Shown here in pieces: positions 1,266 through 64,000 of a stretch of DNA of 64,000 nucleotides. The translations under genes were made by a program, and so were the position numbers. Position 1 is the first letter of the stretch; every line of letters starts with the position of its first letter. Source of the stretch: Terebella lapidaria (Eukaryota > Annelida > Polychaeta > Terebellida > Terebellidae); contig OX424556.1 of assembly GCA_949152475.1 (NCBI GenBank), forward strand, positions 11,404,664-11,468,663. The letters are read 5' to 3'. The notes beneath the pieces were generated by a model. It made no database searches. It was given only the letters and a program-made list of their open reading frames with translations, and had not been told where the DNA came from.

Positions 1266-4200
1266 CCACCCATTGGTTTGTCGCAATGGCTTGGATTTTG
1301 ATTTGGCATCGTCGTCGTCCGAGTCAACCAGGTGGTCACTGCTGGAAGTGGACTTGGCCTCGCTCTCAGAGTCATCATCATCAAGGAATGACGACATACT
1401 GTCATCCTCCAACATGCGCTGGGAAACACCCAACAACAGAACATCTTCAAAATCTTTACTTCTTCGAAATATAGTGCAGCAACAGGCAAAAACAACCTAA
1501 CCATGTTGAACAAGACATTTAATGCAACAAAATGTTGAGTCTAATCTGGGATGGCCACAACTGTTTGTACCTTGTTCTCCTGTCGTATCTCATCCAATTT
1601 CAAACACCAGGGATGTGTCCATATCTTCATCAACTGTTGGTAGTCTTTGAACAGTCTCGCACCTTTGTTGTGTATGCGACCATCAATCATCATAGCATTT
1701 AAGTTTCGCTCCAAATACTTGTCGTACAGTTCCATCTGCTTGGGGGCCAGTCGCACATTGACAACATACTCAAGTTTGGGCATCAGGAACTTGGTCAGTG
1801 CAGAGTAGTCTCGACGCTGGAATAGATAGAAATTATTTGTTAACATCGAGATGAGCTACCATGAGCCGGCCCAGGTCCCTGACAAAGACACCAACCTGTA
1901 CGCAACCAGCCAGTGTCTCATGGAGCACGTGAGCTCTCTTCTTCATCAGCTTGACATCACGAGCTGTCGAGTCTGAACACTGTCCATTGGTAATTGGGTT
2001 GACGAAACGATTTGTGAACTCCTTCTTGGAACCAAGCAGGTTAGGTTTGACAAAGTCCACCATACAGTGATCTGAAATCATCAATAGTGGAAATATGCAA
2101 TACACATATAGTAAAACTATGGAATTGCTAACAAACAGCTAGTCAGACACACAGGCAGATGACAAACGGAACATCTCAGGAGCCCAATGCCTCAAAGAAG
2201 TGCAATAGTCTGGAACACTATGCAGAAAGGTACGTACATTCAACAAGATTGTTCTGGAGTGGGGTTCCAGTCAATACGATTCTTCGGCGCGTCCTTATCT
2301 GGTTGACGGCCTTTGACAATGAGGAGGCACTATTCTTGAGCACATGCCCCTCATCACAAACCACGATATCGGGGCCAGGATCCACCAATGCCTCGGTCAT
2401 TGTCTCCTTCTGTTTCTTCTTTTTAATATTTCGGTGGGTGCTTAGGTTCCGGTACATTTCGTAACCCATGATCATGATACCACCCGAGCGCTGCCAGTCT
2501 CGCAGTGCTTCACTGCGGCCATAGTTGTCTTTGATGCTCGACATTTCCCAGACCTGTCAAAGGAAAAATCAGTCATATATATAACATGGTTCCACCAATA
2601 ACATTGTCTCTAGCTCAAACAAAGACTCATCGTGTCCGGTTGAAAGAAAACTCACGTCGAATGCATCTTCCTCATCGAGCCACTTGTCAAACTCTGACTG
2701 CCAGTTCAGCACTGTATTTAGAGGACAAATGATCATCGCTGTGCGCATTTTCGTTATTTTGGGTTTTGCCATAATTGTTGACAAGAAGGAAATCACCTGT
2801 GAAGAAAAGTTCATTGAGCATCATCTAGCTGCACTATCAGTAAGCATCATCCGGTTGACATTACCTATACTGTACTGCGACATTCATTCAGCAATGAAAT
2901 TTCTGACATGACCAAATGTGCACCCAGTAAAGTTTTAATGCAGTAAATGTATCCACATGCATTTGTATTACCATATCAAAAAAATCCATGCACTTACAGA
3001 CAATGTTTTCCCAAGACCCATGCAATGGGCCAGGATGCACCCGCCCCCGTCTTCTTTCTGTAACTGTTTGACGGTTTCCGCACAACAGTCCCAAAGAAAC
3101 TTGACAGCTTCCACTTGGTGGGGCTTCAGCAACTTGATAATTTTAGGGTTTACTTCGATAAGAGCCTCTCCCGTTTTTTCATTGCTTTCCAAAACGAGCT
3201 TTGTGGTCACTGGACACTTTGTTGGTGAGTTTTCGTCATTAGTAACAACTTCATTGTACTGTAAAGGAAAAAACATGTTTGGTATATCTCAATTTCATAA
3301 CAGAAGAAGAAAGGTTAACTTTTATTCCCCAGGGATTGCTCTTACCTTTTTCTGTCTTTCTTTCACTCGTTCCCGTCGGGCTTCCTCTGCTTTAGCTGCA
3401 GTCAATGTTGTACTAGACAATTTCTGGTCATTCAGAATCCTGCGAATCTTTTTGCGTTTCTTGCCAGTTCCATCATCTTCTTCATTGCTCTGTGAATAAG
3501 AAGACCAAATTGGTATCATTATTGATGCACATCTATAAATGAAACAAGAATTACATAACGTTCTTAAGAATGAATATTGAAGTACCAGTAAAGTGAAAAT
3601 ATAATGTGAACTTATATGGAAGATCTCATTGGTCTGAGCAGAATGGTCTTTACGGCATGTCAATATCACTATCCGTTGAAAAGTTCCAGCCATTTGAAAC
3701 TGCCATTCCGGCACTAAATTACAGAAGTCCCTTGAAAAATTCCAGCAACTCATTAATATGCAAATTAGATGTTATTAATTTGAGAATATGTGACGTCAAG
3801 AGGGGAACTAATTTCAATAAGAATATTTTAAGCCATGAAATAATGATTCGTATTGAAGGTTCTGACGATCTGACTAGTGCATATTATCATGTACCATAAA
3901 TAGTCAATATCCACACATACTGTACTGTTGCTATGGTTACCAGTCCTTCCCTAGAGCTGTAGTTACCCATGGTTGCCATGGCCGTTAACTGCCGAGTCAA
4001 GCTATCTGTAGACTTTCTGTCAATTACTTATGAATTAAATTAATATAGTGCTTGAGTCGACATCGTTTTTATTTGTATATACCCTGTTCTAAGTGTGTTT
4101 CTGGCCCTATCATGTCACTGATTACCTTGACAAGAACAGGGAAAGTGTAGACACTGATTAATCATATTGAAAACTATATGGAATAAGTTTTGATGAATAA

Positions 4201-7200
4201 TCATAATATGACTGATCAACATATGACACATCAAAGTACCTAATTGAATCAGCTTCCCCAAATGAATATCTAATTTGCATACTAAATAGCTAAACGATTT
4301 TAAAGAACCAATTTGCCAATTTCAGTCTTTAAAGTGCTGTAACTTTTGAACGGATTGTGATATTTAAATGCCGTAAAGACCATTTTGCTCAGATCAATGA
4401 GATCATATTTGCACTTCACTAGTACTTTAAGAGATTTCATGTTACTAACCCCAGATCCCGATTCTCCATCTGCATTTGATGAATCAGTATCAAGCTTCAC
4501 ACGTTTACGTCGCTTTTTACCCTTGCCTTTCTTCTTCTTTCCTGTTTCTGAACTGCTGTTCAAAGACATGACTATTATGTCATGGATGTTACCAATACAT
4601 GTTATAGAACACCTGAATGTGAATAGGAAGAGTAAATACTTGATAGAATTAACAATTATGTTTGCTGTCCACATACTCAGACTCCTCTGATTCAGTAGTG
4701 TCTGCAGCTTTCTTCCGTTTTTTACGCGTCTTCTTCACTTTAACTGATTCGTCTGAATCTGAGACTTTGGCATCTAGCAAAGCACTGCGCATACGGCGTT
4801 TAGAGGGAAGAATATCGTCTGAGTCGTAATCTTCTTCCTCAGCCTCCTTAGCCTTCTTGGAAGTTTTCTTTTTTGTTCCCTTACCTGGAAACCAAATAAT
4901 GCAATCTTGATACAATATCTATTCAATTATTGCAGGATCTTAGAGTGACACCCAACCAGTGAAGAACGTACCAAGGCTGTCTAGGTCGGAGTCTTCACTG
5001 TCTTCAGAGCTGTCGATGGCTAGCAGTGCATTCCTGGCCTGTTCATCCTCATCCTCAGACTCGTGGTTGAGCACAACTACTTCATCATCAGTTTCCATCG
5101 CCTGAAGGACAGATTCCACATTTGCAAAGATCACACCTACATTCTACAAAGTGCATGTCCTGGACATATCTCATAATACTGCTACTGGTATTCCTGAAAT
5201 GTCACACATCAACCAATACTGAACAAACACCTTGTCAGAATCTCTTTCATCATCTTCTGCATCTTCCTCTTCTCCTGAACTCAGCTCTTCCAAAAGATTT
5301 GTGGTAGATTTCTTCTTTGATGAACCGGCTGCAACCAAATGTTTCTATGTGAACCTTCAGGCACCACCATGTAATTCTCTTATAATATACATGTTAAGCA
5401 GATGTATTTGTATGGATCAAAGACATACAGTATACATGTAGTGTAAAAAAGGGTATATTTCGTGGAGGGTAATGTTTTGCGGATTTTGCAGTGGGACAGT
5501 TTCGTGGAGATAGGTCAGATAACCTATTGCAGTCACGTTGCGTCCGTCGTCTGTTCGTCCGGCGTGAACAAATTTATCTTTAAAGTTTACGGGCAATTTT
5601 TTCTGAAATTTCGCACAACAATACCTACAAATATTCGAGAAGGAGGTATTTTTTAGTTTGTGCATTCTCACATTTTCTTCAAAATGGCAGCCGTTTTCGA
5701 TGAAAAACGACTGATTTCTGACTTTGACGGCCATTTTCTCAAAAACTGTTCAGACAGTTTTGAGATTTTTGTTTCAAAAGATTCCTCTTAATATGTACCT
5801 CTGTGAAGTTTGGTTTTTGACGGGTTGACGGAAAAAAATTTTTTCGGACCAAATCGCGTTACTCTCCATTTTGGGCCATTTTTGGACCTTGAAAGGTCAA
5901 AACAGCCATTTTCAGGGTCAGAAAATGCCCAGATTTGCCTCTATAGATGAAATGCTTGCAGATAGAGCTTATGTTTGCATTATGAACATATAGGAAGACA
6001 TATATGGCACAACTAATGATGATCCTGAACTTGACCTCAGATGACCTTGAGTGCCAAATGTCTGACTCGGAATGTGTGAATTGGCCTGAGCGGCCTAAAC
6101 GCTTGCACCGATATGTCTTTGTATTATGAACATATAGAAAATCAAATGCCGCACATGTACATGAAATGGTGACATTGCTCACATGGATGACCTTGATTGG
6201 TAAATCTCAAGGTCATTATAATGTTCACACGAATAACTTTGATTGGTAAATTTCAAGGTCTGTTACCTGCCATGGCCAAACCAAAATTGTCTGGTAACCT
6301 ATCTTTTATTTATTTGATTTCCATTTACAGATCAGAAATAGTTGACAGAATAGTACTCACCTGATCCAGGCTTTTCCTTGGTTTGTTTCTTTCCATCAAC
6401 TTCCGTTTCAGCACTGTCCACTTTTTTTGCTGACTTCTTGGAGCGAGTTTTAGGCATCTTGGCTAAATTGGTGATGTCCTTTTCCAGATCTGAATCATGG
6501 TTCTCTGAACTAGAAGCTTGATCTGACTTTTCCACATCAGGCTTATGCTTATGACTAGACTTTTTAGCAGATTTACTTATTGTAACAAATTCACAGTCAC
6601 TGTCTGCATTGTCCTCAGTGGGTTTGCCACATTTTTTGTTTGTATCCTTTTTGGAATGTTTACACTGGGTGCTATCCTTCGTGGACTCCTCCGATGAAGA
6701 ATGGCCATTAGCAATATCTGACTTAGAATCACTTTTCAAAATACATTCTGGAGACGATTCTTTCAATCTTGTGATCCTAACAATACAACGCAGTTCTCGT
6801 TTTCCTGCAAAGATATATCAAGAAACATTGTTTTGGAATTCCAGAAACATTTTAGTTTCACAACAGATGAAACCTTACAATTGAAACTACTCAATGCTTC
6901 CGTTATTCAGCGTGTTATACTATATTTTTCTAGTATCTACACTGACCTTTTCCTTTGCCACGCCCCTTTCCGATACTACTCTGGAGCTTGCGATCAGACT
7001 TGAGTTGGCGACTGTCAGATGTAGGGTTGTAGTCATCATCATCTGAGTAGGTTTTCCTCTTCAAACTCTTGCATTTGACTTCTTCCTCCTCACTTTGTTC
7101 TTCACTGGCTGTAGCAAGTTCTTCCTCTTCCTCTTCCTCTTCTGCGTTGTCATCACTGTCATCTAGAAGTAGTTCTCGATGTAGCTGACGCTGTGCTTCT

Positions 7201-10200
7201 ATGTCCTCCCGAGATCTTGGCACTTCAGTTCCAGTGTCATCTTTGTTCTCTGGATCAGAACGAGGAATATTGCTCTCATTCGGTTCGTTTGGTACATTAT
7301 CATCACTGTCATCCAGCAGTTCACTGCGAAGCTGACGCTGAGCTTCTATATCCTCACGAGACCTTGCTATATCAAGCTTACCCCCATCATCCTGTTGATC
7401 ATTGCCGTGGGTCGACTCGATCGATGGGGGGTCAGATTCGAACTGCTCCACCTCAGCTTCAGTTCCCGATTCCTGTGCAACATTTCCATCCACCAGAGCG
7501 TCCTGGCTGTCTGTAGGCAGTTCTTCACAAGGGTCATCTTCTGCCATGCCGTCTAGATCAGCATTAGTCACTTCCCCAAAGTCATACACCATGTCTGGCT
7601 GTTCTTCCCCACTACTATTCTTGTCTGAGCCACTGTCTGATAGTGTATCAAGGTTGAACAGTGGTTCGAAACTCATGGAGGAGAACATGTCCTTATATGT
7701 TCGGGATCCAGACTGGCCTGAAGTATTCATTGACTCTTCTTTTTTGGAGAGTGGGCTGCTTTCATTACTACTTGTGTCCCTGTTATCATTTGTTCCATCC
7801 ATTTGCATCATCTGGTCATCATCAGAGTCATACTGTCCATCAAGTTGTGGAATCAAAGATGTTTCCAGATCATCAACTTTTGAGAAAGGATCATCAGTGT
7901 AGCCACCATTCAGCTGCTTGAGCTGTTCTTCAATAGTTTTGAATTCATCCAGATCATCAGATTCCTGTGGTGGCTCATCTTCTGGATCTTCTTCATTCGG
8001 ATGTACGGCAGCTAGCTCAACATCAGCAGCTTTTTCCTCCACCGATTCGTCTGCAGTATGTTTCTCAGAATCAACTTCCATGACTTGATCTGCACTTCTG
8101 TCACTCGATTCTTCTTCATTTCTATCATCCTCAGCATCTTTTTTATCTTCTTCTGCATTCACTTCACCTTCTGCCTCTGCATCCATCCTGTTCTCTGCTT
8201 CAGCATCATCCTGTCCATCCTCTTTACTGCAAGGCTGTAGATCCTCTTCCACATCAGAGCCAGGGGTCTTCGTTGTTTCTGTAGGGTTGCCTGAGACTTG
8301 CAACTCCTCCACTTGACCATCTTTCTTGTCACTGACATGTTGGTAAGGCTTGCTTTTATCATCACCATCCTTTGTACTGTCCTCTTTTTTATCGTCTCTG
8401 CTTTGTTGGGAGATCTTAGCTTGTTCTTCTTCATATTTGCGTCTTTTGGACAGAGGCCCTTTTAGCTTGTGGCCTGGCCCACCTAAAGCAACCTTCAACT
8501 TGAATGATTTATTCTTGATTCTCTCATCCAAAGCCTTGTCATCCTCATCCGAATCAGCTTCTTTTTTGGATTTCTTGCTTTCTCGCGTTGGTTTCACTTT
8601 GCTCTCATCGTCACTGTCCAAAAGTTCTATATATTCCACTTTGTTGGATGCAGGTTTAGGTTTGGGTGCTGCTTGCTTTGCGGCAGCAGCAGCCTTCTGG
8701 GAGAGTTGAGCGAGTTGTTTTTGGTTGGGCATCATCATGACCTGTTTGCCGTGTTGTACAAGCTGCACTGGGTGTACACCTTTGTTCTGAGGCTGGGTCT
8801 GGACTAGACCACGGCCCTTTACAGGTACTGGTGTCCGACCCTGGACCACTGCTCCTGGCTTGTGCGTCGGCTGCTGCTGTCTCATCTTCTGCTGCTCTTC
8901 CATCAGTTTCCGTGTTGTGGTCGATCCTGATGTTTTCTGGCTGAATAGCGACAGATCAAAGTAAGATTTGTTGAAAGCACTCAAGGCTCGCTTCAGTTTA
9001 TTAGCAGAGTCTAGTTTAGTGACCATCCTTTGAGAAGTGTTGACATTGCCTGCTTTCTGGATGTCCTCACGCAGAGACGACAGTAGCATGTGCATGGACT
9101 CGGTGACCATCATGGCTCGATCAATGATGGGGACCACATTGCTTTCATTGACTTGAAAGTTCCACTCTGCAAACACATTCTGGCTGGCACCTTGGGTGCC
9201 TTGCGGCTTGGCTGGCTGTTGAGGTTTCTGAGCAACACCTTTGTTAGCATTAGCCTGCGGAATTGGCTGTTTAACACCTTTCTGGTTCAGAAGGTTGTAG
9301 ACGGTACCAGGCTTTTGTTGCTGTGTTTTGCCTCCAGACTGTCGACCGTGGAACACTGCTTGCTTGGCTTGCTGAGCCTGCTGCTGTCTTGGGGAAGGGG
9401 CCGGCGGACCCTGTTTCTTTTTTTTCTCTTCAATTTTCTTCTCCTTTTCTTTCCTACGATCTTCTCGTTTTTCAATGGCTTCGATGACTTGATCACAAAT
9501 GTGAATGAGTTCAGCAAGAGGCTTTGGGTCACAAACATAGCAGTGCCACTTCGAATCTTCATCTGCAGCAGAAAATTTACAAAAAACTAGACGCTTCCGG
9601 TCGCCTACGACCGCTTGGGTGTATCCCCCGTAGCCCTATCATCCCTGTTGCCCCAAATATATCGCTGATGTACATTGTGAGTATGAAACCTTTCAAGCTT
9701 ATTGAAGGTCGAATTCAAGATCACCACTAAAATCACTACATGCGAATTTCCCTTTCGACATGTTCGAAAAAAATAACGAAATTACAGCCAGATAAAAGTT
9801 TTCACCTAAAGCTATATTTCAACTCAGAATATTTGACAAACTTGGTTCACAACTAAGTTGCGAGATGACTAAATTGGAGCCAGATCGAACTTTTCACTGT
9901 AAGTTATATTTCAACTCATACTATGTGCCAAACAACTCATACTATGTTCCAAGTTGAAATTCAAAGTAAAAGTTGACCAAAACTACATTTCAAGATGACG
10001 AAATTGGAGCCAGATCAACTTTTCACCATAAGTTATATTTTAATTCATAATATGTGCCAAACTTGGTTTCAAGCTGAAATTCAAGTAAAAGTTTACCAAA
10101 ACTGCATTTCAAGATGACGAGATTGGAGCCAGATCGATCTTTTCACCATAAATTATATTTTAATTCATAATATGTGCCAAACTTGGTTCCAAGTTGAAAT

Positions 10201-18430: not shown

Positions 18431-18623
18431 TCACCAGTATGGTGGAGACATCGCGAAGTGCGAAAATGAATGATCCCTTATTCAGCTGGATACTCTCAGA
18501 CCTTATGGTTATGTTTTCCTGCTGGGTGCAAAGGCTGCCGTCGTAGATTATTGTCCGCAAAATGGTGGCGAAAGGTTTTGACAGAAGTTTTCCCCGAAAT
18601 TCAAGATAATTCTGACGCACGCA

Positions 18624-21600
18624 ATGGATTCTGAGGTGGATGATACGGGTCGGATTTTAGACCCTGAAGCCGAGGTTCGAAAATTGCAAAAGCTGGTGGC
18701 GAAGTTAACCGAAGAGAGAAATATGTATTTGAAAAACAACGACAATGTAAGAGAAACACACTCGCTGGCGGATCTTCCTGGGCTAAGTAAAACAACTGAG
18801 ACAGAATTTGACAACAAAGCCCACACGGTGAATGCTAACATAAGCGTGGCATCCAAATCTAAATCACAGGAAGGACAGAATGATAACCTTGAGATATCAC
18901 TTGATGAAGTTGATTTGTTGGATATTGACAGTTTAGAAAGTTTAGAGGAGGAAGACAGTTGGTAAGTTCAAAGACAAAACATTTGTACACTATACTCAGA
19001 TTTTTCTAACTCGTTTACACTGTACACTGTTTTTCACTAGCATCAGAGTACCTAATCATCGACCCTCTCCCTAATCCTCGACCCCTGCAAACGGCTGGAC
19101 AAAACTTCAATAAACTAAAATGTGAAATGTGTATTAGAAGTACTTTCAATGTGGTTATTGTGAATATTGTCATGTCTGTTTTGCACAGCTATTTGGCAGT
19201 GTTTGCAGGGGTCGATGATTAAGGACATGGTCGATGATTGGGTACCCCGACGATAGATCTAATATTATTGTGATGCTATATTTCTATCGTTCTATAACTT
19301 GGTAGTGGTCCTACGAGTAGACGATTAACCGTGTGCGGTTAGGTTAATGCTATTAATCGGTTACAAAATCTGTAAACGATTACTTGAACGTAAATTTATT
19401 CAGCATAATAATTCATTATATCTCCATTTTTTATCATGTAAGGCCGCAAAATCAAGCTGAAAGTGTAGGCCTATACTATATGGTGTGTCTGGACTTGACT
19501 TGTGCAGAACACGATGCCTCAAACTTATCTTCGGTGTTAATCAATAGTAGCTGGTCAACCTGTCAGTTTTGACTTCCTCAATCAGTCAGTATCTGGCTTT
19601 AAAACAAAATTGGCACCAGTAACGATTAATCATTTACGGTTCGGTTAGAAGGCAACGATTAATCGATTACAGTTTTCTCTAATCATGGGACCACTATAAC
19701 TTGGCATACTTCACCTGGGAGTCAAACAGCGAATTTCTACCAAATTTCAGACAGCTATCGCACAAAATTTGCAGAAGTTGGCAATCTACCTTAGTGTTAA
19801 ATTTCAGCCCAAAACGGGATCTCGAGAATCTGAGCATATTCGAGGAATTGGTCCTGTTTACCATTGTTTACATCCATCAGGATTCGAAATATTCTTGAAA
19901 CTTTTGACCAGAAGATACACCGGGATGTATTCTACACAAACATGTTGATTTTGAAACATTGCTCCGCTACAAAACCGAGCAAATGCACAAAATTTTGTGT
20001 GGGCCCAGAAATTAAATAATAGGGCTAAATTCGGGGTAGATTGCCAACTTTTTCAATTTTCGCGATAGAAGTTTGAAATTCAGTAGAAACTTGCTGTTCG
20101 ACATAAGATACTGCCAGATGGTGCATGCCGAGTTGTAGAACGACAGCATTTAGCATGACAAAAATATTAGCGAAAAATAGTGTAAACGAGTTAGAAAATT
20201 CCGAGTATAGCGAACCGTCCTGACTCATATCGTCCTAAACCTAGAATTCTTCATGTATACTTTTCTGAGTTTTCATTCAAAATTTATGCCATTCACAAAT
20301 AGTTGCCTTGAGCCACGATTAACAGATATCAGTGACTCAGAGTGAACAATCCTTGTTCTATGTTCACAGGTTGTACACGTCCCCTGTCAAACTGTCACCT
20401 TCAGAAAAAAGTGTCAGTCCCTACAAATGGGTGAGGGAAGAATTTGAACGACCAGATTTACAGTCAGCTGGGAGATCCATACTGTTCAAACTTGATGAAC
20501 TGGCAAAAGGTGATCACAAGCAAGATAAAATATAGTATACTGTAAACACAGAAAGTATAAGCAACCATGTGTTTAGCATTTTTAGGATGCTAAGTCATAA
20601 AATACGGGTTTGCTTCTGTCGTCCACCTGCTTTTAAAAATGGCCGCTATTATTTTCGCTTTGGTGAAAATGCTGAACTTAATGGACGCTGTCACTAATAT
20701 TTCTGAGTTTACAGTATTATGTATTATATACAGTGGTCCCTGTAAGATAAGACACCTCCGAAATAAGACTTCCCTGTCTGTAAAGACATTTTTGTATTCC
20801 CCAAAGATCAATTTAACATGTAAATGAACCTGTGAAATAAGACTTCCTGTAAGATAAGACCTCATTTTCTCTGCAAAAGGTGAGATCTTATCTTACAGGG
20901 ACCACTGTACTGTATTGAACCTAATAGTTGCACGACAAGCCAAAGCAAGACCTCCTGCAGCAGCACACACAAAAATGAGGTCAAACGTGAAGTCAAATTT
21001 AAGAAAAACACTGAATAGTACTTTATTATGATTAAAATAACATAAATATGTGGATTGGAACAGTTCAAGACTATCAGGACCAATACAGTATGCAGTTTCC
21101 ACTTTATCAATTTGGGTTTTTATGTGTGTATGTCGGGCAAATACTTAACCATTGTTTCTTGTTTTGTATATATGTAGCACCCCAAGGTACCAATGTACCA
21201 TGCTCTTCATTGGATGACACGCAAAGTTCTCCACGTAATCAAGGACTACTGTCAACAAGCAGCATGCCCATCATTAGGAAGCCGCTAGTTGGCGTAGGTG
21301 AGATATTTTCTCGGACTACCCCACTGTATCTACATGCAGTTTTATTTGAGTCAGATCCATCATTATTATTAAGAATATACTGCATTGTTCTGGGACTTAT
21401 TTCGCTCAAGTCCTTCACGGCGCATGCGCCACGGTAGGACCAAGTGCGTAATAAATCTTCGTACACTATAGTATCTACAATAATGCTTTTGAACACCTAA
21501 AAAAAAAATAACATATAAATCACAATGAGTGATGTCATATCAACAAATTCTGGTCAACTTGCAATACATTGAACAACAATGCAATGTATATTTATTGCTC

Positions 21601-23739
21601 TGGTTTTACTTTACATTGAATAAGATAGGAACAACCTTATGAAACATACGCTAACATCTTTTTTTTGGGACCAAGCTGAAGATTCTGCATTTATGCCTCA
21701 TGTCCAACATTGGAGCTTCAGGTCTCCAAAAAATGTTAAACTACCCATTTTCATTCAATAAATCAAGCTACCCGGTAATTGAATAACAAAATACTGAAGA
21801 AAAAACATGTTGGTCAGTGCATCATTACTATTCACTGATTTTATATCATATTTAAAAATGTTCTTGATATACCGTATCAATATATCAATGTACAAAGAAA
21901 TTCTATTCTATGACAGCAGGATCAAGGGTTGACACCAGCACATTCACACGTCCCAAGAAACGTGGCCCTGCTGTCGACAACCTCACCACACAACAGACAG
22001 ATTCACGCAGTCCTCGGGCCAGTCCCAGGAATACCCCGGAAACCAACAATAATGCATTCACGTATCACATGGATGAGAATGCCAACAGTGGCGCCTCTAG
22101 TGGCAGCCAGGAGAGCCTGGGCACCCCGCTCAGACTGGCTGATGTTACTGATGTACAAGTACTTGCAAGGATGCAGGAGGATAGTGAGTATGAGCAATAG
22201 GCCTATCCAGTATAGTGGTCCCTGCAAGATAAGAAAATAGAGTTGTTTCTCACCATGCTAACTGGGAGTCACAGTTCACAGGTTCATTTACATGATGATT
22301 TAATCTTTGGGAATACAAAAAAACACGTCTTTATGGTGTGAAGTCTTCAGGGACCATTGTATTTGTCACAGTCCGACACACTCACATGTATTAGAAACAA
22401 TGTCTGTAACCAAAAATGCATATATTATGGCTGTCCATAAACATTCCCTGTAAGTGATTAATTCAACTGAAAGATTTTTGCTTGCAGGTTTGAGGCAAAG
22501 TTTCAATGCTCCCAAAAAGTGTAAGTACTTGCTTTCCCAACTTCACAAACCATGCAGCAATCAGGTGAACATTTAGTATGTCCCAAAATATTGAGAGTTA
22601 TCTAAGTGTAGCATACTTATTATTGCTATGCCAGCCTTATCCAAAAGTCTGAACCGGTCCATGGGTGGTCTCTTGGAGGGAGATAGTGCGAGCAGCTCGA
22701 ACCGGTCCAGTCCTGGTCGATTTGAAAGTAAGTATCTTGTCAAGTATTGTCATCATAAGTGATGGCTGAAAGTTCAATTCTGCACTCTGCTTGATAAATT
22801 CCGGTGAATTGTTCGAACTTGTGTTAATGTCTTGCAGGTGAAATATATCAAAGTGTGAAGCGATCAAATAACAGTTTGGGCTCCTTGAGTTCCAACTCGA
22901 CAAACAGTCCACCTACGAGTCCATACAGCAGTCAATATTTCGATCAGAAAACGCAAGGTATATTGATGCTGTTCGTATGATGAACTCAAAATGCATCCCT
23001 GAAAGTTATCTTCTCACTCTGCTCAACTTTCATTGATCAGTAAACTCCAACCATAACCGTCAATATTGTTGCATTGTCCTTCTAGCTGTGTTGAGTTCAG
23101 ATCGACATCGGAGCAGTTTGCCAAATTTGACGCGGGGTTCGAGTGGTGTGCGGATGCCGTCTCCTCGCAGTGATACTCGCCTGCAGGATCGTGGCTCGCA
23201 GTCACCAACTCTTTCTCGCTCACAGCTGCAGCCCCCGGCCAGGGATCACCGCAGTAGAGCCAGTCCTAACAGACAGTTGAAGGCACCGGACGCAAGGTTT
23301 GGCTCACCGGCGCGCAAGGTTTCACCGAGTCGACAGGATACACAAGGGTTCATGTCACAACGCACTGTACCACAGCCAGGCAATAATCAGCAAAGAATAC
23401 CATCACCCCAACGGCAAAGCTCTCCTGCATATCAACAGAACTCGCCAGAACACCGTACAGCTTCCCCAGCCAGAAATGCTTCACCCCAGAGTTCCGGGAT
23501 TCTTGGAGCGCGTACTGGGATTCCCCGCCCTGGTTCTGCTTCCAAGCTTCCAGGTCCAAGGAGGTAGGGACCACAATAGTGTCTTCCATAATTCGTCCAT
23601 CTCAAATGTTTCAATATCAGTATTGTTATGTATATATTTGTGTGATAAATCTGAGTATTTCTCGTTTAGGTCCAGTATTCCGTCACCACGGCGACCAGTC
23701 ACCACTCCTGATGACAGCTGGAAAGACGGGTGTTTCTGA
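18624..23739 (+). CDS. SLAIN: SLAIN motif-containing microtubule plus-end protein, complete
   Basis: Orthologue of vertebrate SLAIN1/2, adaptors that bind EB proteins and ch-TOG at growing microtubule ends. Nine exons: 18624-18961, 20370-20509, 21178-21297, 21920-22183, 22488-22520, 22635-22727, 22838-22957, 23086-23563, 23670-23739. They are all GT-AG with matching phases; 551 aa, close to the 568-581 aa of human SLAIN1/2. An N-terminal coiled coil (EVRKLQKLVAKLTEERN, about 17-33) is followed by the family signature EEDSWLYTSP then KSVSPYKWV. Mid-protein LADVTDVQVLARMQEDSLR matches the SLAIN core. The C-terminal half is Ser/Pro/Arg-rich with SxIP-type EB-binding sites TGIPRP and SSIPSPRRP and the conserved end SWKDGCF. 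The paralogue split (1 versus 2) is vertebrate, so a plain SLAIN name is safest. Intron 1 is crowded with nested MITEs. Confidence 0.92.
19039..19262. mobile_element. MITE nested in foldback P (GTACC..ATCATCGACC ends)
   Basis: The inverted ends read GTACCTAATCATCGACC…CGACCCCTGCAAAC and GTTTGCAGGGGTCGATGATT…GATTGGGTACC. They bracket a roughly 110-bp centre. It lies between two parts of the left arm of element P. Exact edges and duplication are uncertain, so coordinates are approximate. Confidence 0.65.
19303..19696. mobile_element. hAT-type MITE with 8-bp target duplication
   Basis: Ends TAGTGGTCC… and …GGACCACTA, with the exact 8-bp duplication TAACTTGG at 19295-19302 and 19697-19704. Eight-base duplications are characteristic of hAT transposition. 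The interior has repeated CGATTAATC words. It interrupts foldback element P at its AACTTGGCAT landmark. No coding capacity. Confidence 0.9.
20731..20907. mobile_element. CAGTGGTCCCTG-family MITE, copy 1
   Basis: 177 bp with inverted ends CAGTGGTCCCTGTAAGATAA and TTATCTTACAGGGACCACTG, and TA on both sides (20729-20730, 20908-20909). It is inserted exactly at the terminus of the neighbouring CCGTATTGG-family MITE, sharing its TA. It lies in SLAIN intron 2. Confidence 0.88.
20910..21088 (-). mobile_element. CCGTATTGG-family MITE, shortened copy D
   Basis: Ends CTGTATTGAACCTAATAG and …TATCAGGACCAATACAG, with TA at 20908-20909 and 21089-21090. The body shares GCAGCAGCAC and AAAATGAGGTCAAA with the full-length copies but about 120 bp is missing. 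More diverged than copies A-C. SLAIN intron 2. Confidence 0.8.
22213..22359. mobile_element. CAGTGGTCCCTG-family MITE, degraded copy 2
   Basis: Ends TAGTGGTCCCTGCAAGATAAG and CTTCAGGGACCATTG, flanked by TA. The middle shares TTCATTTACATG and CTTTGGGAATACAAAAA with copy 1 at 20.7-20.9 kb in inverted orientation. SLAIN intron 4. Confidence 0.75.
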
Positions 23740-28578: not shown

Positions 28579-31500
28579 TTATAATGGAGTAGCTTTGCCG
28601 AAGAAGACCCCTGTTGGATTGACCATTGCTGTAAACGTAGAATTCGTAGTGAATTTTCCAAGTGGTTTTCCTGTGAAAACTTCATTGATAGCGTATCCTG
28701 TCTGACTGTTCAGTCCCAAATCCTCAACATTGATCTTAACTTTTGATGGAGTCCCATCAGTGCCAACATTCAGGAAAGCAAATGCCACACTCCCTTCTGG
28801 CAAAACTGGTCTTGTCCAAATTTGAATATTCCCTGCCTGCAAAACAGTGAGAACAGTAAACGTAATACAAGTTTTTAATACTGTGCATCCACAACACATT
28901 GATGTTGCACTACATATTCAGCCGTTATTGACTGTATTGTTTACCTTTGTGATCCTTCTGCCTTGAACACCCATTGGATCCTGGTTGACAGCGATAGCAC
29001 CTTTGTTCTGCAATAGTGCCTTTGACTCTGCGCGCACGTTGCGTAAATCAACAGACATGATCAGTGGAGAAGCCATGATTGACCACAACGCCATCTGGAC
29101 ACGTTCTTGGTCAGGACTCAACCCAAAGTTACCAATAATCAACTGAAACAAAATTGTACAATTTGGTCATTGCCCAGCGCATAATATTTTGTCTGTGTTC
29201 ATGATAGATCAAATTGATTTCTAAGAGTACGTAATACGATATAATACTGTGTATCGCATAGCATCATTTTTTCAAAACAGCATGGTTGTCATTGTTCAAC
29301 ATCCAGAAAGTAAGTGTTTAGACATAAATGTGTTTTACCATGTCCGGGTCATTAAAGTTGCCAGGACCGGCAACTTCTCTGAAGTGAGTCGGATTTGCTC
29401 CATAGAACTCAATGATGCTGAGCAAACTGTCCCAGGAATCCTGGATATCGCCATAGTTACGCCAGATGTTACAGGTTTTGGCGATGCGAGGGTAATCTGG
29501 CTGTCAAGTCCAAAACCCCACAAAACTTACCCACAAGGAACAAACACATAGGGACGTCCTCCTCACCCAGACCTTACCTATGGGCTGCCAGCCGTCCCCA
29601 GTGGTCACCCCCCAGCAATCACCTCCCAGTTGTCCAAGTGTCACATTTTGTCATCGAATGGGTCATACCAGTCAATGTCAGTTTCAAAGAACCTAGGTTC
29701 TTGTAATCACTGATTTGTTACCATGTCTGGATCATTCCAGAATCCTGGCCCAGCCACTTCACGGAAGCCATACTTGTCCTCTGCATAGAACTCGATGATG
29801 CCAAGTACACTGTCCCAGCTGTCCTGCATATCCTTGTAGTTTCGTGCCATGTTACACTGCATCGCCAGCTTCTTGTAGTTGGGCTAAAACCACCCAAACA
29901 TCACCAAGATTACCAACTATCAGATAGGCTATGTCCTGTTGTGCAATGGACCTGGTCACTGAATGTTTACTCAAAGCTGGGGTAAGTGATGAGAAGGAAG
30001 TTGAATTTGAAATATGTAATACACAAACCCTTTCACTGTTCGTTTCCACACGATAAATGCCAATGAAACTTCGGAATGTACTTTGTAATATTCAACAATT
30101 GCTTTAAATGATCTCCTTGGAGCACTTTCTGTGATTTGAGATGTGGGTTAACAACATCATACATGTATGCGACAGCCTAGGATAGTAAATGCTTACTGGT
30201 AGCTGAATTCATAACGATAAATAATTGATACTAAAATTAAAATATCGAGTTTCTGTTCTTGGTTGATATGGGATGACATCGAGTCAGTATTTATATAGGA
30301 TCAATAGTATTGTGTCTGTCCGAATGTCCAATGTCAATCCATTGTTTGACAGCCCATACTGTAAGTGTTCTGGATCAGGAATTTGTCCCATCATGTAGGC
30401 TGACAAAAATGGTCAAAGTACATGTACCAAAATTATACCCTCGTTATCTCGTTACATTGTGTCCATATCATGTGGGCACCGACTTATATTATTTCATGTT
30501 AATTATCAGAATGAAGGACGAGCGACTACCTTAACTTTCCCTTCCTGATACGCCGGCCAACTGCATGAGTAGAGAATTGGCCGACCAGTCTTGTTCAACC
30601 AAAACTCCATAGCGGGGTAGGCTATCAATGGTACAAAAGTGTAGATCACATGAATTTTCATTTATCTAGTTTTGGAAACTTTCAAATTTCATGCGGCCGA
30701 TCTAGCTTACTTGGAAAGATGACAGAGAGAGGCATATCCAGCCATATTGTTAGTGTGAATACAAAGTTGATGATGCCAGCTAATTGCACATACATGTATA
30801 CATGATAAAACAAGTGCAATATTACTGCCAACATTACACCTAGGGGGATAAATCTGAAAATAACTTCAGTTTTGCTGAATACAGTCATCATTACTGCTAA
30901 ATACATGTATGGCCAAAATTGAAACAAAAGGATGCTGTAGCTCACTAGCAATTTTTTTCACAGTGTCGTTTCTTCAGTTAGAATTAATCCGAAGCACAAA
31001 TACATGTATGCCTGTGGCAGTATGTCTGAATTTGCTACATCAGGAATGCATCAAAAACATGAAAACCAAATAAACCAATCAATGACGCACAACATAGTAA
31101 CACATATCTGTAAATACTAAGGAACTAAGCAATGTGTTTGATTTCCGTTTTTACAACATACATGGATGTAAGAGTTGAATGTCTATAGCCATTCTCATGG
31201 TTTGATGTGTATAATACATAAATGGTGACTGATTTGGAGGGAAACATTTCGCCATGTTTCCCGACAAACTAGTCACCATTTATTTTATTATACCGAGTGT
31301 CACTGATTTTATTGTGACATTATGAGCAAATCCGCAAATTTATGTCATAAGTACTAGTAATTACGGAAGTCTTTGACCGTAGCGGTAAACATCATTATAT
31401 TTCATGGCTGAATAACCAATCATCATGATCAGCGACAAAGATTCTAGCATGAGGTATAATAATGTTTTATGTACACTACAATGAACTAAGATTGTTACAG

Positions 31501-33143
31501 TGTATTACATAGTGTTCTTGATAATATTATAGATGTCCTGGTCCATGCACAACAGGTCAGCGAAGAAATTAACATCTTGCTATTGACAAGTAAACATCAT
31601 TATTAAATGTATTCAACAGATAATATTGCAGTAGTTTGCAGAAGTCCATTAAAACACATTTTTGGGATATATAATTTTGATTGCATAAGAGAGTCGGCTA
31701 TCGGCTAGGTACAGAACATTGTAGTAATGGTCTCGACACGTGTCAGCACCAACCTGTTTCCCAGAACCCTGCTGATATACAGGATATTCTGTGGACAGGA
31801 ATATTGGACGCCCCGTCTTGTTCATAAAGAATTCCAAGGGTGGATAGCCTATAACAGACAGTCACACTCGAAAGTTTTGCACAAATTTGCGAAGATTATA
31901 ATTTTTTTCACCCTTTTCACAAATTTCTTCATATAATAACATAATAAGTTTGACATTATGGTAAACAATCTGATCACGGCCATGAACTGTTTGAAAATTG
32001 ATCAACATCAAAACCCTTCAAATACATCCAAATTATCACCCTTCAAGTAAACAAAAATCTGCAAGAATAACTGCTAGCACCAATATATGTACAAAGGTTT
32101 CTACCATCTACCGGTAGTACTCATCATTGATCAGTATTTTGTTCCTCAACATGATTAGATGCATGATACATGTTACATATACATGATACATGTGTACAAG
32201 CATGATACATGTTACATGCATGATACTTGTACATCATATGCTTTGATCACACCAACAACATGGCTGTAATGATTGATTAACGATTGTAATGGTATATGAT
32301 TGAAAGTTATATGTATGCAAAGGTGAAAGTGGGTCATATACCATCATCATAGGAAGCTGGATCCGAGTAACAGCCATCTAGTTTCAAGTAGTCCACCTGC
32401 CAGTCAGCAAAGGTCTCAGCGTCTATCTGAAGGTAGTACTCTGTCCCAGGATATCCGGCACATGTCTTGGTTCCAAAGTCTTCATAAATACCTAGCTTCA
32501 GGCCTTTGGAATGGATCTACAACATAATTTAAATATATTATCCACCATTAACTAGGCAAGACATATCATTCCATATTATAGCATAAAATTTAATTTATAA
32601 TTTAAAAATATTTAATATTGTGCTTTAACATTGTCATTAGTAGAGATGACCCCAAAGGCCAAACACTCCCAAACAACATGCATAGAATGATAGCAGGGCT
32701 ACACATATACACACATAGTCAGCAAGGCCCCTGATCCCATCTGGGAATCTCTGTGGATCAGCTTGTAATCTTCCGTTTGTATCTCGACTTGGAGCGAGCC
32801 AGCAGTCGTCCATGTTCACATATTCATACCCAGCAGACTTGTAGCCTTCAGAAACAAACAGGTCTGCCATGTTCTTGAATAATTGAGCACTGAAAGTTAT
32901 GAAATAATATCAGAATCTATGTAGAAAATATATTCATCATAAAATATCAATGCCACAGCAAAATGAACAGTAAACATATATGTAGGCTTACCTGATACAA
33001 TTGTCGGGATCATTTTTGCAATCAATATTGCATCTGAACCTTTCCCAGTCATTCCATCCCATAGGTGGAGTTCGACCCAAGCCATTGTCAAGTGCCAAAG
33101 CCACAGACACAAAGGCGAGTAACTTGAAACTGTGATGAAGCAT
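28579..33143 (-). CDS. Alpha-galactosidase A / alpha-N-acetylgalactosaminidase (GH27), two duplicated exons
   Basis: Lysosomal retaining glycosidase that removes terminal alpha-Gal or alpha-GalNAc. Exons: 32992-33143, 32715-32889, 32342-32516, then one of 31754-31848 (4a) or 30530-30621 (4b), one of 29722-29883 (5a) or 29339-29500 (5b), 28945-29142, 28579-28836. All are GT-AG; product 403-404 aa (human GLA 429, NAGA 411). [17 protein letters not shown] is a signal peptide, favouring this start over an in-frame Met 14 codons upstream. Conserved residues: MGW, NMDDCW, GIYEDFG, nucleophile Asp156 in YLKLDGC, acid/base Asp in the exon 5 copies (RNYxDxQDSW), and GPGxxNDPDM. The two copies of exon 4 differ at the substrate-selecting positions. 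It resembles GLA and NAGA about equally and may predate their split, so no single symbol is given. The next gene on either side is convergent SLAIN and divergent OFD1. Confidence 0.95.
29339..29500 (-). other. Alternative exon 5b of the GH27 gene
   Basis: 54 codons, phase 0 at both ends, acceptor TTGACAG and donor GTAAAA. It reads [16 protein letters not shown] and [10 protein letters not shown]. It retains the sugar-binding Arg, the acid/base Asp and the Cys that pairs with the exon 4 Cys. The usual Trp of GPGGWNDPDM is Phe here. Confidence 0.9.
29722..29883 (-). other. Alternative exon 5a of the GH27 gene
   Basis: 54 codons, phase 0 at both ends, acceptor GTTTTAG and donor GTAACA. It reads [16 protein letters not shown] and [10 protein letters not shown]. 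Compared with 5b it keeps the Trp of the NDPDM loop but has Ala in place of the Trp before the sugar-binding Arg. Both copies look functional. Confidence 0.9.
30530..30621 (-). other. Alternative exon 4b: NAGA-type specificity loop
   Basis: 92 nt, entering in phase 1 and leaving in phase 0. It encodes [24 protein letters not shown] across two readable parts. In human NAGA the loop is CSWPAY, with Ser188 and Ala191 making room for the N-acetyl group; here the same Ser and Ala fall at model residues 188 and 191. It keeps the disulfide Cys and an N-glycosylation site (NKT). Confidence 0.92.
31209..31293. repeat. Long hairpin in the intron between exons 4a and 4b
   Basis: Arms GTATAATA-ATAAATGGTGACT and AGTCACCATTTAT-TATTATAC enclose a second stem, GGGAAACAT/ATGTTTCCC, around a TTCGCC loop. 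Total about 85 nt. It could be a small foldback element or an RNA structure influencing the choice between the two exon 4 copies; the sequence alone does not decide. Confidence 0.7.
31754..31848 (-). other. Alternative exon 4a: alpha-galactosidase-type specificity loop
   Basis: 95 nt, same entry phase (1) and exit phase (0) as exon 4b, 1.13 kb upstream of it. It encodes [16 protein letters not shown]. Aligned to GLA (CEWPLY) it has Glu at the position of Glu203 and a bulky Val at Leu206, the pair that favours galactose over GalNAc. The usual disulfide Cys is Thr. It keeps the NKT glycosylation site. Confidence 0.9.
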
Positions 33144-33688
33144 GATCTGCAAAAGGATCACTCCGTAGAATAACTCTGGAAACATAGCTGAATTTTTTCT
33201 CCCACAACTTGACGATTACACTATATAGACCTGGAACAGTGTTACATGTAGCATAAAGTGCCACTCTGGATAAATGTGTGTGAGACACCGACGGGCATAA
33301 CCAATCAGCACCATGCTATCATCCAATCATAGCCTATGTCTCAGATTGCCCACGTAACATGGGGAGTGAATATAACGGCCTTTTGTGTATTATAGCATAA
33401 CACATGTTCAATCAGAAGGTGGCAGTGTACAACAAATCGAGCACACGAGGTGAGAACATTTGACATGCACCGCGGGAGAGTGACATTGCTCACGCAAGCA
33501 GCCCTAGCTTGGAAACAAACAGCCCTAGCTTGGGCTAACATAGGAGTTTGTGTAGAGTGACCACTCACGAAACAGTGGCAAGGAACGGGAAATGTTTCAT
33601 AATGACTTACAAGATTGTGACATAAAGAATGAAAACATGGCACTTACGGCAACTTGATGAAGTAATTCATGAAAAGATGATATCAATG
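33144..33688. promoter_or_regulatory. Upstream region of the GH27 gene (probable promoter)
   Basis: No coding exon seen. An open frame of 100 codons on the minus strand (33341-33643) has no recognisable domain. It contains a short direct repeat (CAGCCCTAGCTTGG twice near 33.5 kb). It presumably holds the promoter; no confident core element was identified. Confidence 0.3.
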
Positions 33689-38213: not shown

Positions 38214-40446
38214 CAATTCAATTCAATTCAATTCATTTTATTCAACACAACATCCAACACTACAAGTATGGTTAATACAATAAAATTGAAATAATTGTGT
38301 TGAAAGGAGAATGCAAGAAGCGAAAGCTTGTACAAGGCATTCCCCCATAACAATAATAATGATAATATAAGAATCACCCAAATTATGATACATTATACTT
38401 CAGAAAGTAGTAATGTACAACACAGTAACTTGAGGAAAAAATAAAAAATAAATAAATAAAAAATATATATCAATCTTGTGCTTGTACTGGATTATAATCT
38501 GAAATGTATTTTGCTTTTAGACAAGTTTTGAATCTGGTAATATGTCTAATGCTACGAATTTGACTCTATAAACAATATTTGAATGTTAGGGGGTAACAGG
38601 TGATTTTTAGCTTGATAAACAATTAGAAGCGTTTTCAAGTTTACTATATCTTTAAATTTCAATAACTTGTATTTGATAAAAATTGCATCTGTGTGTTCCC
38701 TATAGTGAGCTTTATCAACCAACCTAACTGCCTGTTTCTGTAACTTTATAATATTAAGTAAGCTAGTTTCATAAGTGTTTCCCCAAATCTCTGAAGCATA
38801 ATTCAAATAAGGCAAAACTAGGGTACATGTACAATAAAGCGTATGAAGACTTGAGCTATCTAGTATGTGTTTTACTCTGTACAAAATGGAAATATTTTTA
38901 GCTAAATTTTTACATACTGAGTTTATTTGTACATTCCACTTTAAATTTTTATCAATATGAACTCCCAAAAACTTTGTAACTTGGACTTGTTCTATATTTA
39001 CACCACCTATTTTTACAGCATTGTTATTAAATACCTTTGTATCATTTTTGAATACCATGAAGTTAGTTTTTTGTACATTAAGTGAAAGTTTGTTCAGTTT
39101 AAACCAAATATTAATATATTCCAATTCTTCATTTAATATTGCAAATGCACTGTTGATATTTTTATGAGTATAAAATATATTGGTATCATCAGCAAACAAT
39201 ATGAATTTAACTTTACTAGATACATTGGCCAAATCATTTATGTAAAGTAAAAAAAGCAACGGTCCTAGAATTGAGCCTTGTGGAATACCACATACAACTT
39301 GATTAAAATCTGAATCGGTGTTATTATAGCACACATACTGTTGACGGTTATTCAGGTATGATTTAATCCATTTATAACAAATTCCCCGTATTCCATAATG
39401 GTCAAGTTTAGCTAACAAAATGTTGTGATTTATTGTATCAAACGCCTTTTTTAAATCTATGAATACACCAACCGTAGAGAGTTTTCTATCATAACTACTA
39501 GAGATATCTTCTAATAAGTCAATTAGTGCTAGTGATGTTGAATGATTTTCACGGAACCCATATTGCCCATTATATAAGAGATCAAATTTATTAAGTTAAC
39601 GAAACAAATTAGTCTGTTGTAGAAAAGTTTTTCTAAGATTTTTAATAATTGTGATAGGATAGAAATTGGTCTATAATTTGAGAATAATTGTTTGTCCCCA
39701 CCTTTGAACAGCGGAATAACTTTAGCGATTTTCATTTGATCGGGAAATTTACCGCATTCCATAGATTTGTTGCAAATACTTGTTAAGGGTGTGATAATGT
39801 GAGAAATACTTTGCTTTATAATTTGCATATTTACTCCAATGTTATCACAGGAAGTTTTGCAGGCAAACTTAGAGACAATTTTCAATATTTCTTCTTCAGT
39901 TGCTGGTTGTAAATACAATGAGTGCGGGTTATCCTTTCCCAGGTATTCTTTGGAACATTTGTTTGGTATCAAATTTATTTTTTTTAGCCAGCGTTGGTCC
40001 AATGTTGACAAAATAATTATTAAAAGAATTGGAAATATCTTTAGTGTCATGAACCAGCTTGTTTCCAATCAAGAATGCTGTATTCATTTCAGCTGATTCG
40101 CTTTTTCTACGAGTTATATCATTTAGAATAGACCATGTTTTTTTCAAATTGTTTTTATGCAACATGAGTTCATTTTTATAAAACATCTTCTCAGCTGCTC
40201 TAAGTATAGTAGTGAGTTTGTTTTTGTACTTCTTGTACTTGTTTTCTGCATCAGTGGTTCTGTACTTCAAAAAACTCATGTAAAGATGTTTTTTCTTATT
40301 TATAGCATTCAACAAACCAGTTGTTAGCCAAGGCTTTTTTTTGTTGTTCTTGACTTTCACTCGTAGTGTTGGACTGATATGTCCCGAGTCTCGCTCACCA
40401 TATCGTGACTTTTATGGTTGGACTCAGTGTATCAGTAGCACTCTCT
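38214..40446 (-). mobile_element. 5'-truncated CR1/L2/Jockey-type LINE
   Basis: The minus strand carries a reverse transcriptase in pieces. A linker region (KKPWLTTGLLNAINKK, 39929-40360) comes first, then the N-terminal fingers (KVIPLFKGGDK, NYRPISILSQLLKILEK; 39529-40068). The palm is 38552-39418 (GIPQGSILGPLLFLLYINDL, FADDT) plus the thumb (VTKFLGVHIDKNLKW). The frame changes at least twice and the endonuclease domain is missing, so the copy is dead. The 3' end is a (TTGAA)n microsatellite at about 38214-38236 after ATTTTATTCAACACAACATCC (plus-strand view), typical of CR1/L2-like elements. Flanking 20-21-bp target duplications TAAATCGAACAG(A)GTAGTG lie at 38194-38213 and 40447-40467. Confidence 0.88.
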
Positions 40447-62800: not shown

Positions 62801-64000
62801 CGGGATAGAAATTTCCAACTCCACAAATCCAGAATATGGCAATCGGTCATCAAGGGGGCCTTTGATCACCAACAACTCTGACACAGGAAATACCGGCAAA
62901 GACCGCAAATGAAACTTCAAGAACTCCAGAGAGATTGTAGTCACCATGGATCCTGTATCCACAAGACATCTACAACATCTCCAACCAATTGTCCAGCCTT
63001 GGGATCAACCGAACTAGAGATACCCACCGATCCCACCAAAGGTATCTCTACTCGTTTAAATCCTTCCCCTGCCATCTGGCCTCCAGTTTCTCCTGAACCA
63101 AAGCAGGATTCTTTGGTGAAGTGCATTTGTCGAGCATATGACCATCAGCGCCACAACGATAACAAAACACCTGAGGCTTGGGCTTTGAACCAGACTTGGG
63201 TCCTTTCTTCTTGGATTTCCCTGGAACAGATGATCCAGAAGGAGCAGAAGTACTCTCTGGGGCAGCAGTAGAACGTTGCTGAAGCTGTGCTTCCAAGTTG
63301 GCAAGCCGATCCTGTATATCCTTGACTCGATCACATTCCCCAACCATGGAAGCCACTCGACCAGAAGTCCTCAATCTCAGTTTTTTCTCCACGGCCTTGC
63401 TCTCTTCTTTCCTGATGCTGAGAAGCAGATTTGCAAAAGTGGGCGGATCATCAACTTGACCTTCCAGATCCAGCTTCAACAACAGGCTTTCATCCCTACT
63501 ACCACGGACAAACTGCTTAAGAAGCAAAGACTGAACATGAGACAACTCTGTTCCACCCTTCTCTGCAGCATCCATCACCAAGAGATAAAGTCTTTGCAAG
63601 TACTCTGAAGCTCTCTCTTTCTCCTCCTGGTAAGTGCTGTAGAATCTGATAAGGAGTTCATGTCCATCAACAACATTACCATAGATGTTATCCAGAATTT
63701 CCAAGACCTCGGAACAACTTCCAGAAACTGACTTGACTGCATCGAGTGCAGGCCGAAGAAGGTTTTGCAAAATGACCCTTTTCTTTTCAGCTTCTGACAC
63801 AGATTGGTCATCGAGCAGCTGTTTGACCAACAAACGCCAAGTATCAAAATCCACCTCTCCAGCGGGCACAGGAGTCTTACCTGAAAATAATCGAAGTTTC
63901 CGCTGTCTTGTGGAAGGAGCAGCTTCGATGACAATTCGATCTGACAAATCCAAATCAGAAACAAGTCCACGGCGTTCCTCTGCACTGAGAGCCTGAATCT
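59834..64000 (-). mobile_element. Ty3/gypsy retrotransposon, broken, running off the right edge
   Basis: A fossil endogenous element on the minus strand. Parts in order from the right edge are gag with a CCHC knuckle (CYRCGADGHMLDKC), aspartic protease, reverse transcriptase with YIDD, RNase H and part of integrase (zinc-binding and core regions). The gag layout, ending in a single knuckle after a helical capsid-like region, resembles the gypsy group related to vertebrate PNMA genes. The copy is broken, about two breaks by eye, and its integrase end is missing. No long terminal repeat is visible in the window; one end lies outside. The good preservation of the reverse transcriptase region suggests a fairly recent insertion. 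Confidence 0.9.

Follow-up and report, generated by a model that had tools for sequence, protein, structure and literature searches.

A stretch of 64,000 nucleotides from the annelid Terebella lapidaria (assembly GCA_949152475.1, contig OX424556.1, positions 11,404,664 to 11,468,663; hereafter the window, with positions counted from its first letter) carries a single intact gene of glycoside hydrolase family 27 (GH27), the family of the lysosomal enzymes alpha-galactosidase (GLA) and alpha-N-acetylgalactosaminidase (NAGA). Exons 4 and 5 of this gene are each duplicated in tandem, and on balance we consider it probable, judging from sequence, that the copies serve as alternative exons. Alternative use appears likely in itself, and a switch between galactose and N-acetylgalactosamine (GalNAc) is plausible, resting mainly on one residue. 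Splicing in vivo, strict exclusivity and a changed substrate preference are what we infer from the features described below.

The gene occupies positions 33185 to 28579 of the minus strand and has seven exon positions with coding lengths of 194, 175, 175, 95 or 92, 162, 198 and 258 nt, the duplicated exons following each other in the order 4a-4b-5x-5y. The coding part of exon 1 (32992-33185) begins with the start codon, encodes an N-terminus that is hydrophobic by eye and ends at the donor GTAAGC. Exon 2 (32715-32889; 175 nt) supplies Asp92 and Asp93 (residue numbers follow human GLA throughout), and exon 3 (32342-32516; 175 nt), which ends at 32342 in phase 1, supplies Tyr134, Cys142, Lys168, the nucleophile Asp170 and Cys172. 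Then come exons 4a (31754-31848), 4b (30530-30621), 5x (29722-29883) and 5y (29339-29500), followed by exon 6 (28945-29142; 198 nt) and exon 7 (28579-28836; 258 coding nt), which holds the C-terminal beta-sandwich domain and the stop codon. All four isoforms that combine one exon 4 with one exon 5 are open over 417 or 418 residues and match the full GH27 domain profile, Pfam Melibiase_2, far above its cut-off of 23 bits (4a-5x, 457.6; 4a-5y, 461.6; 4b-5x, 468.9; 4b-5y, 473.9), and all four retain the catalytic residues Asp170 and Asp231 as well as Arg227. Among solved structures, chicken NAGA (1ktb) comes closest to the two isoforms used as queries, 4b-5y and 4a-5x, with alpha-galactosidase A chains next. 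A tblastn search of the window found exons 1, 2, 3, 6 and 7 only once each (next best E = 0.13) and no further copy of any exon (best match beyond the known exons E = 0.071). The locus is a single intact GH27 gene, likely a pro-ortholog of GLA and NAGA; its introns, vertebrate-like layout and neighbours suggest an animal host.

An earlier note on this DNA, made from its letters alone, had claimed that exon 4 exists twice, with intact splice sites, equal phases and a glycosylation site in both copies, and with lengths that demand the use of exactly one. All of this stands up. Exons 4a (95 nt) and 4b (92 nt) find each other by tblastn over the window with E = 6e-10, and no third copy was found there (next best for either copy E = 0.071). 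Both enter in phase 1, their first residue coming from a split codon, leave in phase 0, are flanked by AG and GT and carry the motif NKT at the position of human GLA Asn192. The reading frame was followed through all 16 inclusion patterns across the exon 4 and exon 5 positions. The eight patterns that include just one exon 4 copy all stay open through the normal stop, the four with both copies end at codon 222, and the four lacking both end at codon 186 or 192. Because both or neither brings an early stop, an open frame needs exactly one exon 4 copy, and this supports a frame-enforced either/or choice. The early stops sit upstream of the last junction, and RNAs with both copies or neither would presumably undergo decay.

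The duplication of exon 5 was absent from the earlier note. Exons 5x and 5y are 162 nt each, begin and end in phase 0, have AG/GT splice dinucleotides and share 34 of 54 residues (tblastn E = 1.3e-21), so that in both pairs of this gene the neighbouring exons are homologous and agree in phase and splice dinucleotides. The order 4a-4b-5x-5y makes two separate tandem duplications the likelier origin; duplication of a single block of exons 4 and 5 was set aside, as it predicts the order 4-5-4-5 and the observed order is 4-4-5-5. Since 162 is divisible by three, the frame is kept with none, either or both of the exon 5 copies whenever one exon 4 copy is used. Inclusion of both or neither would add or remove 54 barrel residues, the acid/base Asp231 going with them if they are lost, and we propose that a complete barrel needs one exon 5 copy. 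Up to four isoforms are therefore possible from the two choices.

The exchanged block, equivalent to residues 183-267 of human GLA, includes seven pocket residues: 203, 206 and 207 from exon 4, 227 and 231 from exon 5, and, also from exon 5, residues 266 and 267, which we take to belong to the pocket. The equivalents of the first five in GANA-1 of Caenorhabditis elegans are named in the available part of PMC548690. Among the seven, only 203 and 206 vary between isoforms, being Ser/Ala in 4b and Glu/Val in 4a. The other pocket and catalytic residues checked are identical in the four isoforms, human GLA and human NAGA, and the choice of exon 5 leaves Arg227, Asp231, Asp266 and Met267 unchanged. 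As had been claimed, 4b is NAGA-like: it reads CSWPAY, with the equivalents of NAGA Ser188 and Ala191 and with the Cys, Trp and Tyr of that loop. Exon 4a reads TEYPVY, in which the equivalent of Glu203 is present, Val takes the place of Leu206 and Thr that of Cys202.

The assumption in the earlier note that these two positions set specificity has published backing. In the available portion of PMC5478728, human NAGA carrying S188E/A191L is described as having lost its activity on 4-methylumbelliferyl (4MU)-alpha-GalNAc and as having a kcat/Km for 4MU-alpha-Gal raised about fourfold, and what is accessible of PMC8791529 credits Glu203 and Leu206 with the exclusion of GalNAc by GLA. A solved alpha-galactosidase A chain, 3lx9, bears the NAGA motif, aligned as CSWPAY. 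The single Ser/Ala gene product GANA-1 is reported, in the available text of PMC548690, to have both activities; the 4b enzyme alone could therefore serve both substrates too, and 4a may only add a galactose-selective form. By this analogy, the likeliest gain from 4a would be a galactose-restricted enzyme.

These observations suggest the following mechanism. With exons 4 and 5 each duplicated in the order given, one exon 4 copy would be spliced in to keep the frame open and one exon 5 copy to complete the barrel. Choice of 4b would give a NAGA-type pocket able to admit GalNAc; choice of 4a would place Glu and Val beside the 2-substituent and exclude GalNAc, the resulting pocket being either alpha-galactosidase-like or otherwise altered. 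Choice of exon 5 would alter residues 226 and 262 beside the pocket, along with the rest of the segment: 5x (with the sequence GFWNDPDM) has Ala for Trp226 and keeps Trp262, and 5y (with GNFNDPDM) keeps Trp226 and has Phe for Trp262. A more elaborate version, which we regard as doubtful, holds that the two choices are coordinated and yield up to four enzymes, 4b with 5y being of NAGA or broad specificity and 4a with 5x being a co-adapted, galactose-selective form in which Thr202, Tyr204 and Ala226 changed together. That Tyr204 of 4a and Ala226 of 5x are matched changes is a guess. If this version were true, splicing would divide the activities that vertebrates have split over two genes.

Both pairs of exons are old. 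Nucleotide identity between the copies is 56% for exon 4 and 64% for exon 5, nonsynonymous divergence (dN) is 0.42-0.43 and 0.30-0.35, respectively, and synonymous divergence (dS) is far above 1 or not computable, with the NG86 method yielding no value for exon 4. In a codon comparison, 4a and 4b share 16 of 30 residues and differ at 7 of 8 fourfold sites, and 5x and 5y differ at all 10. Under assumed base frequencies, the total change at fourfold sites has a 95% bound of at least 0.93 per site in exon 4, which when split evenly between the branches makes about 0.47 each; for exon 5 the bound is at saturation. Synonymous sites are thus saturated and amino acids partly retained in both pairs, and because of this old divergence with partial retention it is unlikely that any copy is a long-decayed relic. 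Both copies of each exon have probably been under constraint for a long time, present-day use being a separate matter. In a simulation of neutral decay, a relic with 0.5 changes per site still had its frame, its identity and its splice dinucleotides with P = 0.00125 for exon 4 and in 0 of 20000 runs for exon 5; the splice part of the simulation is approximate, and its start from the present 4b and 5y favours the relic. Sites that are the same in the sister exon, human GLA, human NAGA and chicken NAGA (invariant sites) are kept at 9/9 in 4b (P = 0.0024), 20/23 in 5x (P = 0.0016) and 20/21 in 5y (P = 5.5e-05).

The comparison with vertebrate enzymes fits a duplication of exon 5 within this lineage, because 5x and 5y (34/54) are closer to each other than to those enzymes: each has 28/54 residues in common with chicken NAGA, and the counts for 5x and 5y are 29/54 and 28/54 against human NAGA and 24/54 and 27/54 against human GLA. 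The pattern for exon 4 is mixed. In this alignment 4a shares 17/31 residues with 4b and fewer with the vertebrate enzymes (14/31 with chicken NAGA; 13/31 and 11/30 with the others), but 4b has more in common with chicken NAGA (20/31) and human NAGA (18/31) than with 4a. Such a pattern would result either from rapid evolution of 4a or from a duplication of greater age.

Several observations weigh against alternative exons that switch the sugar preference. Exclusivity of exon 5 is not enforced by the frame, and the frame argument holds for exon 4 only. Donor sites, scored against nine positions of the general consensus, match at 7 positions for 4a (CAG|GTTGGT) and at 6 each for 4b (AAG|GTAGTC), 5x and 5y, compared with 8, 6, 6 and 7 for exons 1, 2, 3 and 6; because 6 or more positions, the level of 4b, 5x and 5y, are matched by 57 of the region's 343 GT sites, the splice-site score does not discriminate. 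At 0.3 changes per site, a value below the bound, the simulated neutral relic of exon 4 has P = 0.045 (0.008 for exon 5). Exon 4a keeps only 9 of 13 invariant sites, an enrichment that is not significant (P = 0.25), and it is by this measure the least constrained copy, its constraint being weaker or altered. In human GLA, the variant table in the available part of PMC7037350 gives 0 to 1.4 for C202Y, 0 for W226R and 0 for W262C, values that by analogy cast doubt on the 4a and 5x forms and less on 5y, whose W262F is conservative. Lastly, the claim that 4a is GLA-like survives only in part. Human GLA can be told apart from both NAGAs at 10 positions of exon 4 (diagnostic positions), and there 4a has one GLA-type residue, three NAGA-type residues and six others, and 4b has none, five and five; Glu203 is the sole GLA-type residue of 4a, and position 206 is Val. 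The 16 diagnostic positions of exon 5 divide into 1 GLA-type, 5 NAGA-type and 10 other residues in 5x and 2, 3 and 11 in 5y, so 5x, too, is no more GLA-like.

One alternative, which we consider rather unlikely, is that both sets of exons are spliced and that the 4a or 5x proteins, or both, are poor or inactive enzymes with another role (binding, dimer partner, dominant-negative form or off-switch), with no switch in preference. The earlier note had observed that 4a lacks a disulfide Cys. Cys202 is indeed replaced, and the observation was incomplete in that Trp204 is replaced as well; Cys223 is present whichever exon 5 copy is used and would in 4a isoforms be left without Cys202, presumably its disulfide partner. 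Further evidence comes from bacterial relatives, taken as the best 80 of 245 in a scan of bacterial and archaeal contigs and mostly Actinomycetota by their titles. Trp226, missing from 5x, and Trp262, missing from 5y, are each present in 80/80, and Trp226 is also found in human GLA, human NAGA and chicken NAGA. With either exon 5 copy, a Trp universal among these relatives is missing, so that some isoforms may have little or no activity, and the near-zero human values for C202Y and W226R point the same way. On the other hand, apart from 203 and 206, no isoform has lost any of the catalytic and pocket residues checked, Cys223 occurs in 0/80 of the bacterial relatives, and Cys202 and Trp204 are not universal, as 13/80 have loops of the form x-S-A-P-A-Y without either. 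The comfort to be drawn from these 13, all of which retain Trp226 and Trp262, is limited because 66 of the remaining 67 keep a loop Cys shifted by one position.

A second alternative, to which we give a similarly low probability, is that 4a and 5x are old alternative exons whose use was recently lost, 4b-5y alone being made now. The Pfam scores, which are best for 4b-5y and lowest for 4a-5x, the lower identity of 4a (14/31) than of 4b (20/31) to chicken NAGA, and the lack of significant enrichment at the invariant sites of 4a are in its favour. It is opposed by the state of the exons themselves, as neither 4a nor 5x has a stop, a frameshift or a lost splice dinucleotide, and neutral decay since duplication is disfavoured by the simulation; moreover, 5x and 5y are equidistant from chicken NAGA and 5x keeps its invariant sites significantly. 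Chance similarity, an assembly artefact or two overlapping genes is a reading in whose favour nothing was found, and it is very improbable, given the tblastn values of both pairs with AG/GT ends in matching phase, copies too diverged to be haplotypes, and single exons 1, 2, 3, 6 and 7 in the window.

Competing RNA structures that might act as a switch were not borne out: there are 20 exact inverted matches of 12 nt, where 100 simulated runs gave 7.58 on average and at most 22, and 46 of 11 nt (simulated mean 20.82, maximum 47), so that both counts lie above the mean and within the simulated range. Those counts include the share owed to a hairpin at 31218-31283 in the intron between 4a and 4b, with 30-nt arms that are 87% complementary, a 6-nt loop and -35.7 kcal/mol. 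No second copy of it was found in the window; it may be left over from a mobile element or act in splicing. Four imperfect 19-nt copies, spaced 18-20 nt apart and with CATGATAC in common, lie at 32155-32230, within the intron that precedes 4a.

Regarding the origin of the gene, a tree of 195 columns from exons 1-3 and 6, with 12 hand-chosen loci of the 80 bacterial ones as outgroup, placed it outside human GLA and the two NAGAs (support 87.6/92), which fits a single ancestral gene behind the locus. The earlier proposal that one gene here stands in place of the vertebrate duplication thus agrees with the branching order, but groupings with GLA or with NAGA are not rejected by the approximately unbiased (AU) test (p = 0.095 and 0.114, respectively). 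A viral scan, weak and limited to two N-terminal peptide patterns, gave no relatives.

The gene shares its catalytic and pocket residues with vertebrate GLA and NAGA, 4b matching the NAGA recognition loop, and its seven exon positions compare with the 7 exons given for human GLA in the accessible part of PMC548690. Vertebrates distribute the two activities over two genes, whereas here exons 4 and 5 are duplicated within one. Other invertebrate GH27 genes, such as C. elegans gana-1 and Schistosoma SmNAGAL, resemble 4b in having the NAGA Ser/Ala motif (available parts of PMC548690 and PMC8791529), and neither text, as far as available, mentions duplicated exons in them. According to the same portion of PMC548690, gana-1 is the sole such gene found in C. 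elegans, and reverse transcription PCR (RT-PCR) found no alternative splicing of it, unlike the exon choice predicted here. The locus itself belongs, by its sequence, to a known kind, tandem duplicated exon substitution, in which one of two adjacent homologous exons is chosen, as in KHK, CAMK2D and NALCN (PMC9741552, in the part available). NALCN has two such events, with isoforms that differ in ion selectivity (same source and extent). The word galactosidase is absent from PMC9741552. The present locus differs from known substitution events in that the block exchanged holds the sugar-specificity pocket residues of a lysosomal glycosidase. Mutually exclusive exons also alter the substrate preference of CYP4F3, a cytochrome P450 with one exon pair. 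In agreement with the earlier note, which knew of no precedent, no description of duplicated or mutually exclusive exons in GLA, NAGA or GH27 genes was found in the titles and abstract beginnings of the papers listed by searches of the open-licence literature, a body that excludes most subscription papers.

Should transcripts confirm the predicted exon choice, splicing would exchange much of the sugar pocket of a lysosomal glycosidase and provide a natural test of how the specificities of the Fabry and Schindler disease enzymes are separated. Alternative splicing would then substitute for the gene duplication behind GLA and NAGA. If the proteins are active, C202T, W226A and W262F would reveal a tolerance of losses whose nearest human counterparts, C202Y, W226R and W262C, score about zero in the available part of PMC7037350.

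Elsewhere in the window, the minus strand at 1541-9635 contains three pieces matching the SNF2-related domain, of which one (2218-2556) scores 60.7 bits and the other two (19.6 and 23.8 bits) fall under the cut-off of 24.9; a 901-residue open reading frame (ORF) there has no Pfam match. Together they resemble an ATRX-type chromatin remodeller. A probable SLAIN-family gene lies on the plus strand at 18582-23567, with a Pfam SLAIN match of 29.2 bits (cut-off 27) at 21868-22200, and the ORFs at 18582-18965 and 23037-23567, which have no Pfam match, were assigned to it by eye. Retroelement remains are found on the minus strand in two places: at 38552-39595, a reverse transcriptase ORF by Pfam that is LINE-like by eye, and at 59834-63004, an ORF for RT-RNaseH next to one with integrase domains (both by Pfam), an element that by eye is Ty3/gypsy-like.

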